Source: a virus. Taken from it: 21,020 bases of DNA. The notes under the pieces were generated by a model that was not told the origin of the DNA, did no database searches, and saw nothing but the letters and a program-made list of their open reading frames with translations. Positions 2,746 to 18,408 of the stretch are shown piece after piece. The translations under genes and the position numbers were made by a program. Every line of letters begins with the position of its first letter. The first letter of the stretch is position 1. The DNA lies in the IMG/VR virus record IMGVR_UViG_3300025646_000461, positions 1 through 21,020 of that record. One strand, given 5' to 3'.

Positions 2746-3327
2746 ATGAAACAATGTAAAAAATGTAATGTAGAAAAATCTTTAGATCAATTCTATAATA
2801 AAAAAGGAGAACCTGATGGGAAGCATAGATATTGTAATACTTGTATGAGGCAAGAAAAAAAAGAATATTATAATCGTACTAAAGATGAACGTATCGACTA
2901 CTACAAAAAATATAGAGCAGAAAATAAAGAATATTTTAATAAGTATTCTAATAACCATTACCATACCAAAAAAGAACTTTATAGAGAATGGAATAGAGAA
3001 CAATATAAATCAAACCCAGAATTTAAACTAAAACATTTAGTTATAGGAAGAATTTATTCAGCTTTACAATCTTATCAAACTTTAAAAAATGATAAGACTG
3101 TTGAGTATTTAGGATGTTCAATAGGTGAATATTATGAGTATTTAAAAGGTATGTTTAATGAAAATATGAATTGGGATAATCATGGGGAATATTGGGAAAT
3201 AGATCATATTAAACCAATTGATGCTTTTGATTTAAATGATGAAAAACAGTTATATGAGGCCTTTCATTATACCAATACTCAACCTTTAGAAAAAACTCTA
3301 AATAGAGAAAAAAGTAACAACTTTTAA
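2746..3327 (+). CDS. HNH endonuclease, free-standing homing type
   Basis: Probable DNA-cutting enzyme of the kind that inserts between phage genes and spreads by homing. The N-terminus carries a zinc-knuckle pattern, C4-x2-C7 and C30-x2-C33. Residues 35-95 are highly charged and rich in Lys, Tyr and Asn, suiting DNA contact. The catalytic HNH/ββα module lies at the C-terminus: WEIDHIKP (D153, H154) followed by N177 and N186 with typical spacing. Length (193 aa) fits phage HNH proteins that pair an N-terminal zinc finger with a C-terminal nuclease. The gene sits alone between the capsid terminator and the first early-type promoter, and I see no good promoter of its own. It is more AT-rich than the capsid gene, consistent with a separate origin. 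Its target site and whether it is active are unknown. Confidence 0.88.
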   Translation: MKQCKKCNVEKSLDQFYNKKGEPDGKHRYCNTCMRQEKKEYYNRTKDERIDYYKKYRAENKEYFNKYSNNHYHTKKELYREWNREQYKSNPEFKLKHLVIGRIYSALQSYQTLKNDKTVEYLGCSIGEYYEYLKGMFNENMNWDNHGEYWEIDHIKPIDAFDLNDEKQLYEAFHYTNTQPLEKTLNREKSNNF

Positions 3328-3963: not shown

Positions 3964-4752
3964 ATGAAAAATCAAATTAAAAGAGGTCGTCCACGTAAAA
4001 CTCAAATAGTAAAAACATTTAATCCTTCATCTGTTAAATTATTTAGGGGTTCGGATTTAAGCTTTAATACTAGTTTATTCATCCCTTTAAAAACCAATCG
4101 TGAGATTGATGTTATACTTTCAACTGAAGGTGGATTAATGCCAGGTACTAATATGGTATTTGTTGGTGGTCCAGGTTCAGGTAAAAGTACTGTTACTTTA
4201 GATATGTTATCAGATTTTACTAATAAAGGTTATAAATGTTTATTTGTAAGTGGTGAAATGGATGAAATTGCTCATTACAAGTATTGTAAGCGTTTACCTA
4301 AATTTCAAAATGTTCAAACTTTATTTTTGAAAAACTATGCTGAAACTGTAAAGGAAACTTTAGAGTATGTTTTTGATCAAGGTTATGATGTAATTGCAAT
4401 TGATTCCCTTGCTGAAGTAATTGAAATGGTTAAAGATAATTACCGAACTACTGAAAGTGCAGCTGAAAGTTGGTTGCTTAACTTACAAGATAAGCATAAA
4501 AAAGGTGAAAATAAGTGTTCATATTATACTACTTTCATTAATATTCAACAAGTTACTAAAGCTGGTGATTTTGCAGGATCTAACCGCCTTAAACACATGA
4601 CTGATGCAATGTGCCACATTGAACGTAGTAAAGATGGTTTAGAGCGTTCAATTCATTTTAGTAAAAATAGGGATTGTGATAAGGATTTTAAAATGTATTT
4701 TTCAATCCATCGAGATACAGTTCATTATTCATACGAGTTTACTAATGACTAA
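3964..4752 (+). CDS. RadA/RecA-fold ATPase with AT-hook-like N-terminus
   Basis: ATPase of the RecA/RadA superfamily, probably acting on single-stranded or branched DNA in recombination or replication. The Walker A motif is GGPGSGKST at residues 68-76. Walker B is VIAID at 143-147. The segment FVSGEMD (94-100) matches the RadA/Sms region after Walker A. Residues 209-220 (LKHMTDAMCHIE) resemble the RadA stretch that precedes its KNRFG motif, and KNR is present at 234-236, but followed by Asp-Cys instead of Phe-Gly. The RadA N-terminal zinc finger and C-terminal Lon-like domain are both missing (262 aa against about 450 for RadA). In their place residues 6-12, KRGRPRK, look like an AT-hook, which could favour AT-rich DNA. 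A DnaB-like or UvsX-like role remains possible. The next gene begins 11 nt after the stop, so the two are probably co-transcribed from P3. Confidence 0.8.
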   Translation: MKNQIKRGRPRKTQIVKTFNPSSVKLFRGSDLSFNTSLFIPLKTNREIDVILSTEGGLMPGTNMVFVGGPGSGKSTVTLDMLSDFTNKGYKCLFVSGEMDEIAHYKYCKRLPKFQNVQTLFLKNYAETVKETLEYVFDQGYDVIAIDSLAEVIEMVKDNYRTTESAAESWLLNLQDKHKKGENKCSYYTTFINIQQVTKAGDFAGSNRLKHMTDAMCHIERSKDGLERSIHFSKNRDCDKDFKMYFSIHRDTVHYSYEFTND

Positions 4753-4763
4753 AATTAAATAAA

Positions 4764-5549
4764 ATGAAAAATTTAAATCTAATACCACTAAATAACGACC
4801 TTAATAAGTTACAAGGTTTTATTCCTTCACTTGATAAAAATTGGAGGAATTCACAACGAATTAAATCAAACCCATATCAAATTGAAACGCTTGATGCTAT
4901 CTCAGATTTACAAAAATATGGATGGAAGATCTCAGGAGCAAGAGAGGTTAGAGATAAACGTTCCTATAAAGTTTCAAACCATCTAATTAAATTAGATCAT
5001 CCTGATTTTCAAATTAAAAATAAATCAGGTAACTCTGAAGCTATAGCTTCAATGAGATTATATAATAGTTGTGATGGTTCTTCACCATTAGAGATGGATT
5101 TTGGTGTTTTTCGTCAAATATGTTCAAATGGCATGGTAGCTAATACTTCCTATAGCAATTATAAAATTCAACATACTGAAAAAGGGAATAGTAAAGTTCA
5201 TGAAATTTTAATGGATGCTAATATTCAAGCTAATTTAGTAATAGATGAATTTAATAAACTTAAAAATGTTGAATTAGATCATATTAAAGCTATAAAATTA
5301 GCTTCAGATGCTGCTCGTATTAGATTTGGTAATATATCTAATTTTGATGTAAATCAACTATTGGAACCTGTTAGAGTTGAAGATACTGATAATGATGTTT
5401 GGACTGTATTCAATCGAATCCAGGAAAATTTAACACAATCTAATAGATTGATAGATAGAGATGGATACGCTATTTCAGGTGTTAATTCAGTTAAGGAAGA
5501 TACTCGAATTAATAAAGCATTATTTGAAAAAGCTTATGCGTTAGTTTAA
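4764..5549 (+). CDS. DUF932 family protein
   Basis: Belongs to the DUF932 (phage/plasmid-like) family, whose role is not settled; members occur on plasmids and phages, often near DNA-metabolism or anti-restriction genes. The family hallmark RQICSNGM lies at residues 117-124, preceded by a strand-rich region with GSSPLEMDFG. The C-terminal third carries the usual helical part with a Trp (VWTVFNRIQENL) and a final INKALFEKAY segment. The 261-aa length is usual for the family. It sits 11 nt behind the RadA-like gene and ahead of a terminator, so it is the last gene of the island. Confidence 0.8.
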   Translation: MKNLNLIPLNNDLNKLQGFIPSLDKNWRNSQRIKSNPYQIETLDAISDLQKYGWKISGAREVRDKRSYKVSNHLIKLDHPDFQIKNKSGNSEAIASMRLYNSCDGSSPLEMDFGVFRQICSNGMVANTSYSNYKIQHTEKGNSKVHEILMDANIQANLVIDEFNKLKNVELDHIKAIKLASDAARIRFGNISNFDVNQLLEPVRVEDTDNDVWTVFNRIQENLTQSNRLIDRDGYAISGVNSVKEDTRINKALFEKAYALV

Positions 5550-16284: not shown

Positions 16285-16773
16285 ATGGCAGTATTAGATC
16301 CAAACGAAATTTTTTATACAGCTTTTGAACCAAAGCAAGCAAACAGATTTATCCTTTATGTAGATGGTTTTCCTTCTTACATAATAAAAGGAATAAGTGG
16401 ATTCAACATTGATAACGGTGAAGTTGTTCTTAACCACATCAATGTTTTAAGAAAGATTAAAGGTAAATCAGTATGGAGTGATGTTTCATTAACTCTATTT
16501 GACCCTATTACTCCTTCAGGAGCACAAGCTGTAATGGAATGGGTTCGTTTACACCACGAATCTGTAACAGGTAGAGATGGTTACTCTGATTTCTATAAAA
16601 AAGATGTAACAGTAAACGTAATTGGACCTGTAGGTGATATAGTTTCAGAATGGATATTAAAAGGTGCCTTTATCAAAACTGCTACTTTCCCTGAATTTAA
16701 CTGGGATACTACAAATACTGCTGTTCAAATTGAAATGACATTAGGTATAGATTATGCTGTGTTAAATTTCTAA
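16285..16773 (+). CDS. 19: Tail tube protein, gp19-like
   Basis: Inner tail tube subunit (162 aa; T4 gp19 is 163 aa). Family features in order: an N-terminal AFEPKQANRFILYVDG strand with FPSYIIKGISGFNI, then the HINVLRKIKGKSVWSDVSLTLFDPI stretch containing the usual basic loop, then a helix AQAVMEWVRLHHE, and a closing strand region ending AVQIEMTLGIDYAVL. The length and position after the sheath gene are exactly as expected. A strong terminator follows, so sheath and tube form one late unit. Confidence 0.95.
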   Translation: MAVLDPNEIFYTAFEPKQANRFILYVDGFPSYIIKGISGFNIDNGEVVLNHINVLRKIKGKSVWSDVSLTLFDPITPSGAQAVMEWVRLHHESVTGRDGYSDFYKKDVTVNVIGPVGDIVSEWILKGAFIKTATFPEFNWDTTNTAVQIEMTLGIDYAVLNF

Positions 16774-17008: not shown

Positions 17009-17341
17009 ATGGAAACAGTTTTATTGGCTTGGGGTTTAGGGATTATTACTGTGTTTACAACAGCAATGATTTTAGCAATTTTTTGGTTAGTAAGAATGTA
17101 TCAAGACCAAAGAGATGAATTAATTGATTTGGAAAAAAAGATTTATTCATCAATGGAAGATATAGATACTGATCATCTAACAAATAGAAATTCATTATCA
17201 TCAAAAATTCATGCATTGAGTAATTCACTTACAGAAATGCATAAATTTCAAAATGAACAGTTAGACCAAAAAGTAAAACAAATTTATGCTGATCTTGAAG
17301 TATTAAAAGCAGAAGTAAATCGTTTAATTAGATCATATTAA
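17009..17341 (+). CDS. Membrane-anchored coiled-coil protein (110 aa)
   Basis: One strong membrane segment at residues 4-29 (VLLAWGLGIITVFTTAMILAI, then FWLV) is followed by RMYQDQRDE, so the N-terminus is likely outside and the rest cytoplasmic. Residues 35-107 form a long helix with coiled-coil character (LIDLEKKIYSSMEDI; later LDQKVKQIYADLEVLKAEVNRL). There is no catalytic motif. Topology is reminiscent of spanin or holin-associated proteins, but the position between tube and hub genes is not a lysis cassette. The start overlaps the preceding unit so closely that the two are probably co-translated. Function unknown. Confidence 0.65.
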   Translation: METVLLAWGLGIITVFTTAMILAIFWLVRMYQDQRDELIDLEKKIYSSMEDIDTDHLTNRNSLSSKIHALSNSLTEMHKFQNEQLDQKVKQIYADLEVLKAEVNRLIRSY

Positions 17342-17396: not shown

Positions 17397-18116
17397 ATGG
17401 AAAATACACTAAAATTCCCTACTGAAATTATTGACTTACCCTCTAAAGGTTTAGTTTACTCACCAGGAAATCCTTTATCTGAAGGTAAAGTTGAAATGAA
17501 ATACATGACAGCACGTGAGGAAGATATTCTTACTAACCAGTCATATATTGAAAAAGGTATTGTTTTAGATAAACTACTTGAATCTCTAATAGTAACTAAA
17601 ATTAATATTAAAGATCTAATTGTAGGGGATAAAAATGCACTTTTAATTGCAGCTCGTGTTTTGGGTTATGGTAAAGATTATAAATTTACCTTAAAAGGAG
17701 AAGAACATACTGTTGATTTATCTACTTTAGAAAATAAAGAATTTGACACTAATCCAGGTACTAATGAATTTAATTTTACTTTACCTCATAGTGGTAATGA
17801 AATTACTTATAAAATTCTAACAGGTCATGATGAAAGTTTAATTGACCAGGAAATTAAAGGTCTTAAAAAATTAAATAAAAATGCTTCACCTGAATTATCA
17901 ACTCGTTTAAAATATATTATTACTTCTGTGGGTGGTAATAGAGATATTAAAACTATTAGAGAATTTGTTGATAATTATTTATTAGCTAGGGATTCAAGAG
18001 CTTTAAGGGAACATATTAAAGAAACTCAACCTGATGTTAATTTAAATTATGTTTTAGAAGGTGGTGAGGAGGTCACTATTCCAATTAACCTTAACTTTTT
18101 TTGGCCTGACCTCTAA
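17397..18116 (+). CDS. 26: Baseplate hub protein, gp26-like (T4_baseplate family)
   Basis: Hub-assembly protein of the T4 gp26 type (239 aa; T4 gp26 is 208 aa). Signature elements: IDLPSKGLVYSPGNPL near the start, then KYMTAREEDILTNQSYIEKG (35-54), then IVGDKNALLIAARVLGYG and, in the C-terminal half, FVDNYLLARDSRALREHI. These are typical of the T4_baseplate family as I know it from marine T4-like phages. It lies directly upstream of the tape measure gene, where unrelated tailed phages encode tail-assembly chaperones. The reading frame ends FFWPDL at 18116, and a second frame overlaps its last 56 bases. A run of seven T (18096-18102) just before the stop could allow a +1 or -2 shift into that frame. 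Confidence 0.8.
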   Translation: MENTLKFPTEIIDLPSKGLVYSPGNPLSEGKVEMKYMTAREEDILTNQSYIEKGIVLDKLLESLIVTKINIKDLIVGDKNALLIAARVLGYGKDYKFTLKGEEHTVDLSTLENKEFDTNPGTNEFNFTLPHSGNEITYKILTGHDESLIDQEIKGLKKLNKNASPELSTRLKYIITSVGGNRDIKTIREFVDNYLLARDSRALREHIKETQPDVNLNYVLEGGEEVTIPINLNFFWPDL

Positions 18117-18408
18117 AATAATCCCAGAAGTAAGAAGAAATTTATTTAAACAAATTCACGAAATCGTCTTTCATGGTAAAGGTGGTTATGATTATGAGAC
18201 TGTTTATAACTTACCTATTTGGTTAAGGAAATATACATTTTCTGAAATTCAAAAATATTATGAAGCAGAAGCTGAGGCCTCTAAGTCAAAGAGTTCTACT
18301 ACTACCGAATTAATAGATAGTAAGGGTAATATAAATGTTCCGGCATTTGCTAAAGCTTCCAAAGAATTTTCTCCACCTACATATTCAACTAGAGCTAGCA
18401 AAAAATAA
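18061..18408 (+). CDS. gp51-like hub-assembly protein, overlapping frame, possibly made by frameshift
   Basis: A +1 frame relative to the gp26-like gene. The part that looks like protein starts after the overlap: VRRNLFKQIHEIVFHGKGGYDYETVYNLPIWLRKYTFSEIQKYYEAE. This resembles the short gp51-type hub proteins I associate with marine T4-like phages. There is no ATG anywhere before it in this frame. The only conventional candidates are two adjacent GTG codons at 18061 and 18064, deep inside the gp26 gene, and an AGGAGGT at 18067-18073 lies after them, where it cannot serve them. A shift at the T7 run would give a 336-aa fusion (235 residues from gp26, 101 from this frame). A homopolymer sequencing error is the competing explanation. 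The C-terminal 40 residues are Ser/Lys/Thr-rich and probably flexible. Confidence 0.6.
   Translation: MVRRSLFQLTLTFFGLTSKIIPEVRRNLFKQIHEIVFHGKGGYDYETVYNLPIWLRKYTFSEIQKYYEAEAEASKSKSSTTTELIDSKGNINVPAFAKASKEFSPPTYSTRASKK
18096..18104 (+). other. Candidate programmed frameshift site
   Basis: In the gp26 frame the codons are TTT TTT TGG. A +1 slip of the Phe tRNA re-pairs perfectly (TTT to TTT) while the Trp codon waits; a -2 slip on the T run reaches the same frame. A -1 slip meets TGA at 18107. The downstream frame then runs 101 codons without a stop. Confidence 0.55.

Follow-up and report, generated by a model that had tools for sequence, protein, structure and literature searches.

Evidence for a programmed +1 frameshift joining gp26-like and gp51-like sequences ahead of the tape-measure gene in a T4-like virus

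The 21,020-base IMG/VR virus record analysed here over its whole length (the window), whose head and tail genes are T4-like, carries two overlapping reading frames between its tail tube and probable tape-measure genes. Comparison with homologous loci, in which both the site and the offset are conserved, strongly supports the programmed frameshift proposed in the initial annotation, which would fuse a gp26-like protein (ORF A) to a gp51-like extension (ORF B). Judged from sequence, the locus very probably yields two proteins from one start, i.e. a chaperone pair of the lambda gpG/gpGT type serving a T4-like contractile tail. It thus appears to supply the pair of helper proteins for tail building that T4-type phages were thought to be without.

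Reading frames in the window

In addition to a gp23-type capsid gene (PF07068, 3e-73), the window encodes sheath, tube and probable tape-measure proteins. Gene order is tube, A, B, probable tape measure (Table 1), which places the A/B pair (17397-18408) between tube and tape measure as first annotated, with a 110-aa ORF lying between tube and A. This small ORF (17009-17341) has a hydrophobic N-terminal stretch and no convincing family match. Another ORF (2746-3327), directly 3' of the capsid gene, looks HNH-endonuclease-like by eye and is perhaps a homing gene.

The two frames of the locus join at a run of seven T (18096-18102), read in frame 0 as TTT TTT TGG CCT GAC CTC TAA. ORF B is in the +1 frame and has no ATG, its only listed GTG codons being at 18061 and 18064; measured from 18061, it overlaps ORF A by 56 nt, and it ends at 18408. 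Each of these features (both ORFs, the T run, the offset, the overlap, two GTG and no ATG) had been described beforehand and was reproduced, as was the TGA that blocks a -1 slip.

Table 1. Features of the locus and its neighbours, in window coordinates.
Feature	Position	Strand	Remarks
Tail tube protein gene	16285-16773	+	phrog_4542, E 1.5e-15; upstream of ORF A
ORF A, gp26-like short form, 239 aa, ATG start, end FFWPDL-stop	17397-18116	+	phrog_150 baseplate hub, E 2.2e-8
Shine-Dalgarno-like AGGAGGT	18067-18073	+	about 23 nt before first slip codon; offset conserved in +1 groups
Place of upstream hairpin	18072-18095	+	hairpin in most +1 relatives; window 0.0 kcal/mol, none stable
Slip site TTT TTT TGG	18096-18104	+	invariant island in three +1 groups
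ORF B, +1-frame extension GLTSK..., 101 aa post-slip, putative gp51-like C-terminal (T) part	18103-18408	+	pN/pS 0.55 in own frame, other frames with stops; helical core model
TGA closing -1 frame just 3' of slip site	18107-18109	+	
ORF A stop TAA	18114-18116	+	
Probable tape-measure protein gene, 811 aa	18443-20878	+	phrog_167, E 1.1e-3

Conservation of the slip site and upstream signals

A search of viral contigs with ORF A recovered at least 600 relatives, of which the best 80 were taken for comparison (the match list of every query being its best 80). The site was then compared across about 175 homologous loci forming three +1 groups, which are related to each other, so that counts overstate their independence. 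The extension is in the +1 register in all 79 readable close homologues (65-74% amino acid identity; from the best 80 of at least 600), and the +1 frame stays open for about 250-310 nt past the stop, except at contig ends and in one locus with an early stop (L032). In the window group (n=80), 73 loci have TTT TTT TGG CCT, four TTT CTT TAC CCT and three TTT TTT TTC CCT. The group of Microcystis phage Mel-JY01 (79 loci) keeps the +1 offset with 74 TTT TTT TGG CCT, three CTT TTT TGG CCT and two TTT TTT TAC CCT, and so does the group of uncultured phage LR756508 (16 loci) with 14 TTC TTT TGG CCT and two TTT TTT TGG CCT. The comparison of homologous overlaps suggested with the initial annotation therefore gives a T run that is mostly kept and a +1 offset conserved in about 175 loci.

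The offset is also kept in distant isolates, namely SP-15 (TTT TTT CAC), LIS04 (TTT TTT AGT), Streptococcus phage GXN1 (TTC TTT CGT), RM378 (TTT TTT TGG) and Flavobacterium phage immuto (TTT CTT TGG); a search of viral contigs with SP-15 recovered no relative besides SP-15 itself. Rhodothermus phage RM378, whose gp26-like gene with TTT TTT TGG and a +1 extension spans 3998-4880 (L084), has a rearranged gene order, since this gene precedes the annotated tube gene, which is on the other strand.

Codons just outside the island vary freely; at an invariant Pro five codons upstream, for instance, all four Pro codons occur. Across the three +1 groups, almost every locus has YUU followed by U as its second slip codon, the exceptions being LR756508 and three Firmicute phages (next base C or A). 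In the window and Mel-JY01 groups, CCT is the sole codon for the Pro that follows TGG, which may partly reflect coding in both frames, an explanation that does not account for the third base of the slip codon. The slip site is not tied to the frame-0 stop codon, dependence on which was considered and rejected, since the stop lies at a variable distance from the site in relatives. In two loci, L281 (TTC TTG TAT) and L287 (TTC CTT TGG CCA), the slip site or its context has been lost, and the extension has become a separate gene in another frame (L281/L292 and L287/L293) with its own ATG 5-8 nt past the stop; as a single lineage, sister to immuto, they count as one natural control.

The extension is under selection as coding sequence. 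Past the frame-0 stop, its pN/pS in its own frame is 0.55 and 0.47 in the window and Mel-JY01 groups, where the other two frames contain several stops, and 0.34 in the third group.

The Shine-Dalgarno-like motif upstream of the slip site is under selection too. In the window group, the Glu codons at offsets -30 and -27 have GAG:GAA ratios of 46:2 and 38:1, against 160:936 in the gene body, and the energy profile versus the 16S 3' end has a single sharp peak at -30/-31 in the window and LR756508 groups, whose counterpart in the Mel-JY01 group is broader and lies near -32 to -42. Compared with synonymous randomisation, the motif at -36..-21 gives z-values of -19.7 (window group), -14.0 (Mel-JY01) and -5.0 (LR756508), and a hairpin at -24..0 gives -13.0, -7.7 and -7.6, respectively, most control windows falling within about 3; these values, for which the control windows and the cyanophage group (see below) serve as calibration, overstate significance because the loci share ancestry. 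When hairpin arms were swapped between loci, none of 200 swaps was as low as the native pairing in each +1 group, compared with 152 of 200 in the cyanophage group. Arm pairing is strongest at -24 or -21 among about 70 offsets tried, and pair counts in a fixed register reveal moderate covariation, with an alternative register being weaker. The linear distance from motif to first slip codon has a median of 23-27 nt, of which about 7-9 nt are left outside the hairpin.

Motif and hairpin are best seen as auxiliary, since the window is without the hairpin and one Mel-JY01 subgroup is without both. On the 3' side of the site, no conserved structure was found in the +1 groups (mean z -0.24 and -0.31). 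A perfect complement that flanks the slip site in the window, GAGGTCA (18069-18075) with TGACCTC (18107-18113), was discarded as a candidate signal, its native pairing being no better than swapped pairing in relatives.

Links to T4 gp26 and gp51 through the cyanophages

In T4, phrog_150 covers most of gp26 and most of gp51, phrog_634 matches only the C-terminal part of gp51, and the two proteins align directly with an E value of 2e-6. They are paralogues, gp51 being gp26 plus a C-terminal extension, and their genes are, as the initial annotation had it, separate (adjacent but divergent).

Of the identities first proposed at our locus, that of ORF A as gp26-like holds (phrog_150; Table 1), but that of the extension as gp51-like is not seen directly and is reached only via intermediate groups. 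Direct profile comparison of the window-group fused protein with T4 gp51 or gp26 was not significant, and no direct match was found between the window-group extension and gp51 (no phrog_634 hit; hhalign probability 0.9% from the window and 9.5% for the window group). In stepwise hhalign comparisons, the window group leads to a fused form in Firmicute phages (99.6%), and this form to the fused form of cyanophages (97.2%), which in turn aligns across the junction with T4-like gp51 (98.7%, E 2e-16), and with gp26 only as far as the terminal FF (99.2%); gp51 itself matches gp26 at 99.5%. With extensions only, that of the Mel-JY01 group matches that of cyanophages (86.5%), which matches gp51 (96.7%).

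In cyanophage KBS-M-1A, the gene after gp26 has its own annotation, as a 45-aa 'baseplate hub assembly catalyst'. In all 81 cyanophage loci, gp26 ends with xxT TTT TTC, in which T_TTT_TTC is a standard -1 heptamer, and an extension follows in the -1 frame that on its own matches phrog_634 'baseplate hub assembly catalyst' (9e-30). A Shine-Dalgarno-like motif lies 9 or 11 nt before the TTT in 79 of the 81 loci, which fits -1 shifting, for which a spacing of 9-14 nt upstream has been described (PMC5009743); a weak structure signal is present downstream. At some of these loci, reinitiation may add to the shift or replace it, since many have an ATG 5 nt past the stop. Cyanophage gp51 was reported in 2010 to have only about 20% of its normal length and to be without its first ~200 residues (PMC3037559), and no explanation of this by frameshifting was found in the available portion of that text.

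Sites of the -1 type also occur in Atu_ph07, PA5oct, LR756511, MED4-213, S-SSM7, BUCT608, C48C1 and RHph_I9. In Salmonella phage Det7 (L325, about 2300-2490), the Kuttervirus gp26-like gene ends with ATT TTC ATT TAA and a gp51-like extension follows in the -1 frame, the junction having neither a clear -1 heptamer nor a start codon close by. In Pseudomonas phage Cygsa01 (L107, 5309) and Vibrio phage K357 (L326, about 2170), the gp26-like stop overlaps the ATG of a short gp51-like ORF (TAATG), which suggests stop-start coupling rather than a shift.

A tree of 62 sequences places all +1 loci in a single group, which includes L281 and L287. Some -1 loci are just outside this group and the others make up the cyanophage group, which joins Straboviridae gp26 and gp51 (100/99). 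The tree is unrooted and several of its branches are long. Separate structure models were made for the short form and for the extension. The ORF A model (pLDDT 92) matches predicted folds of gp26-type proteins from phages P4-3 and Aeromonas 25 (E 8e-4), and the extension model has a helical core. Searches of solved structures gave no significant match, the HK97 tail assembly chaperone 2ob9 scoring E 1.7, probability 0.35 and TM 0.46 by target length (not significant).

The initial annotation had linked the gp26/gp51 pair to the G/GT system, a link that these comparisons support and extend, gp26 and gp51 being paralogues whose counterparts are joined at a -1 site in cyanophages. The pair looks like a system of the G/GT type, encoded with a +1 shift here, a -1 shift in cyanophages and two genes in T4.

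Proposed mechanism, alternatives and known systems

We infer that a shift does occur in a minority of ribosomes, that it happens in the P site and that its products act as chaperones. The majority of ribosomes would terminate at 18114, releasing the gp26-like short form, while a minority would slip +1 at UUU_UUU_UGG with UGG waiting in the A site. In these, the P-site tRNA-Phe would move from UUU 18099-18101 to the overlapping UUU 18100-18102, and translation would continue in the +1 frame to 18408, giving a gp26-gp51-like fusion. As counterparts of lambda gpG and gpGT, the short form would coat the tape measure and the end of the fused form would recruit tube subunits; in T4, two paralogous genes, 26 and 51, would encode these two forms separately.

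It is unlikely that the shift is real and its products are parts of the baseplate hub rather than chaperones of the tape measure. The family is annotated as baseplate hub and gp26 has been reported in the T4 hub (PMC3004832). However, the same review counts both proteins among the hub assembly chaperones, gives the function of gp51 as unknown and says that gp51 is not in the particle, and both gene position and the G/GT-like layout fit chaperones. In Acinetobacter phage Lazarus, gp26 and gp51 are annotated as tape measure protein assembly chaperones, so this role has already been proposed by others.

As for direction, a T7 run lets a +1 and a -2 slip both re-pair fully, and the initial annotation had offered either; in the latter, the peptidyl-tRNA would move back two bases and reach the same frame with an additional Phe, by a -2 shift like that known for the tail genes of phage Mu (PMC5009743). 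The +1 slip is favoured by the sites TTC TTT TGG (14 loci) and TTC TTT CGT (GXN1), where tRNA-Phe would land on UCU after a -2 slip, whereas a +1 slip re-pairs the P-site tRNA fully on UUU (or on UUC in SP-15 and GXN1). The +1 part of the original proposal is thus retained, and its -2 part appears quite improbable. Slow A-site codons are known to matter for +1 shifts, and UUU_U is found in a small minority of release-factor-2 genes (PMC5009743).

There is a similarly slim chance that the extension is a separate protein with its own start within gp26 or just past it, reached by internal initiation or by stop-start coupling. The upstream AGGAGGT could serve such a start, the overlap of some +1 loci contains a TTG or ATG as a candidate start, many -1-group loci have the ATG 5 nt past the stop mentioned above, and L281/L287, Cygsa01 and K357 look like true separate genes. 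However, when the three +1 groups were scanned from the last upstream +1-frame stop to residue 12 of the extension, no ATG, GTG or TTG able to start it was present in 19/81, 27/79 and 9/17 of their loci, so that 55 of 177 loci have no start near the junction; moreover, the candidates are inconsistently placed, and separate initiation would give no reason for the invariance of the slip codon.

Slippage of RNA polymerase on the T7 run, which most window-group and Mel-JY01-group loci possess, could yield mRNAs of altered T number that encode the fusion, yet this is very improbable since the extension is likewise in the +1 frame at sites without such a run (TTT CTT TAC, TTT CTT TGG, TTC TTT TGG, TTC TTT CGT). 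A sequencing or assembly error, a worry raised at the outset because the frames join at seven T, can be dismissed, the same offset being found in about 170 further loci from many metagenomes (independent assemblies, some without a long T run) and shared by the isolates immuto, Mel-JY01, SP-15 and RM378.

The kind of system described here is known; what appears new is its protein family, the occurrence of both directions at one site and the signal upstream of the +1 shift. Searches of the open-licence literature (where absence is not proof) turned up no account of frameshifting in the gp26/gp51 family of T4. We are about equally ready to accept or to doubt, as a joint proposal, a wider scheme in which (i) a gp26-gp51 chaperone gene expressed by frameshifting is common to the T4-like phages as a whole, (ii) the direction of its shift has changed between -1 (T_TTT_TTC) and +1 (YUU_UGG) while the two Phe codons involved stayed the same, and the gene turned into two paralogues, 26 and 51, in Straboviridae, and (iii) the +1 signal is of a new type (a Shine-Dalgarno motif, a 15-20 nt hairpin and a slip codon), in which the hairpin shortens the path from motif to P site and the motif pushes the mRNA forward as in release factor 2. 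One model, with gp26 and gp26-gp51 as the short and long tail-assembly chaperones, joined by a frameshift in several lineages and encoded by two genes in T4, would cover both the statement in a review of recoding that long-tailed phages 'except T4' conserve G-T frameshifting (PMC5009743) and the short cyanophage gp51 (PMC3037559). Annotations of hundreds of phage genomes would change. The family would also offer a series seldom met in nature, in which one and the same protein fusion is achieved by a +1 shift or a -1 shift, or replaced by separate genes or paralogues, which lets one ask which cis signals set the direction of a shift.

The closest parallel in layout is lambda gpG/gpGT, which has counterparts in many tailed phages and with which the locus shares two overlapping ORFs between tube and tape-measure genes, and a predicted short major form alongside a long fused minor form. 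It differs from lambda in shifting +1 at UUU_UUU_UGG rather than -1, in belonging to the T4 gp26/gp51 family (family searches found no sequence similarity to lambda gpG) and in its larger short form (239 aa). Homology to T4 gp26/gp51 runs via the intermediates, with gp26 ending at the same FF where the frames join here and gp51 possessing the extension, but T4 has two separate divergent genes and no frameshift, whereas the window has one gene plus a shifted extension. In cyanophages (Kyanoviridae), which have gp26 and a very short gp51, fusion would likewise complete a gp51-like protein by a shift at the homologous FF codons, but there the direction is -1, the site T_TTT_TTC, and the Shine-Dalgarno-like motif lies 9-11 nt away.

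Among other +1 systems, the release factor 2 gene (prfB, CUU_UGA) has in common with our locus a YUU_U slip codon, a +1 direction and an upstream Shine-Dalgarno-like motif. In contrast to prfB, the A-site codon here is a sense codon (UGG, UAC or UUC) instead of a stop, no autoregulation is expected, and the motif is about 23 nt away, usually with a hairpin in between, compared with 3 nt for release-factor-2 shifting (PMC5009743). Listeria phage PSA also has a +1 shift in a phage tail gene, but it shifts on CCC, and does so in its capsid and major tail protein genes rather than in tail assembly chaperones (PMC5009743).
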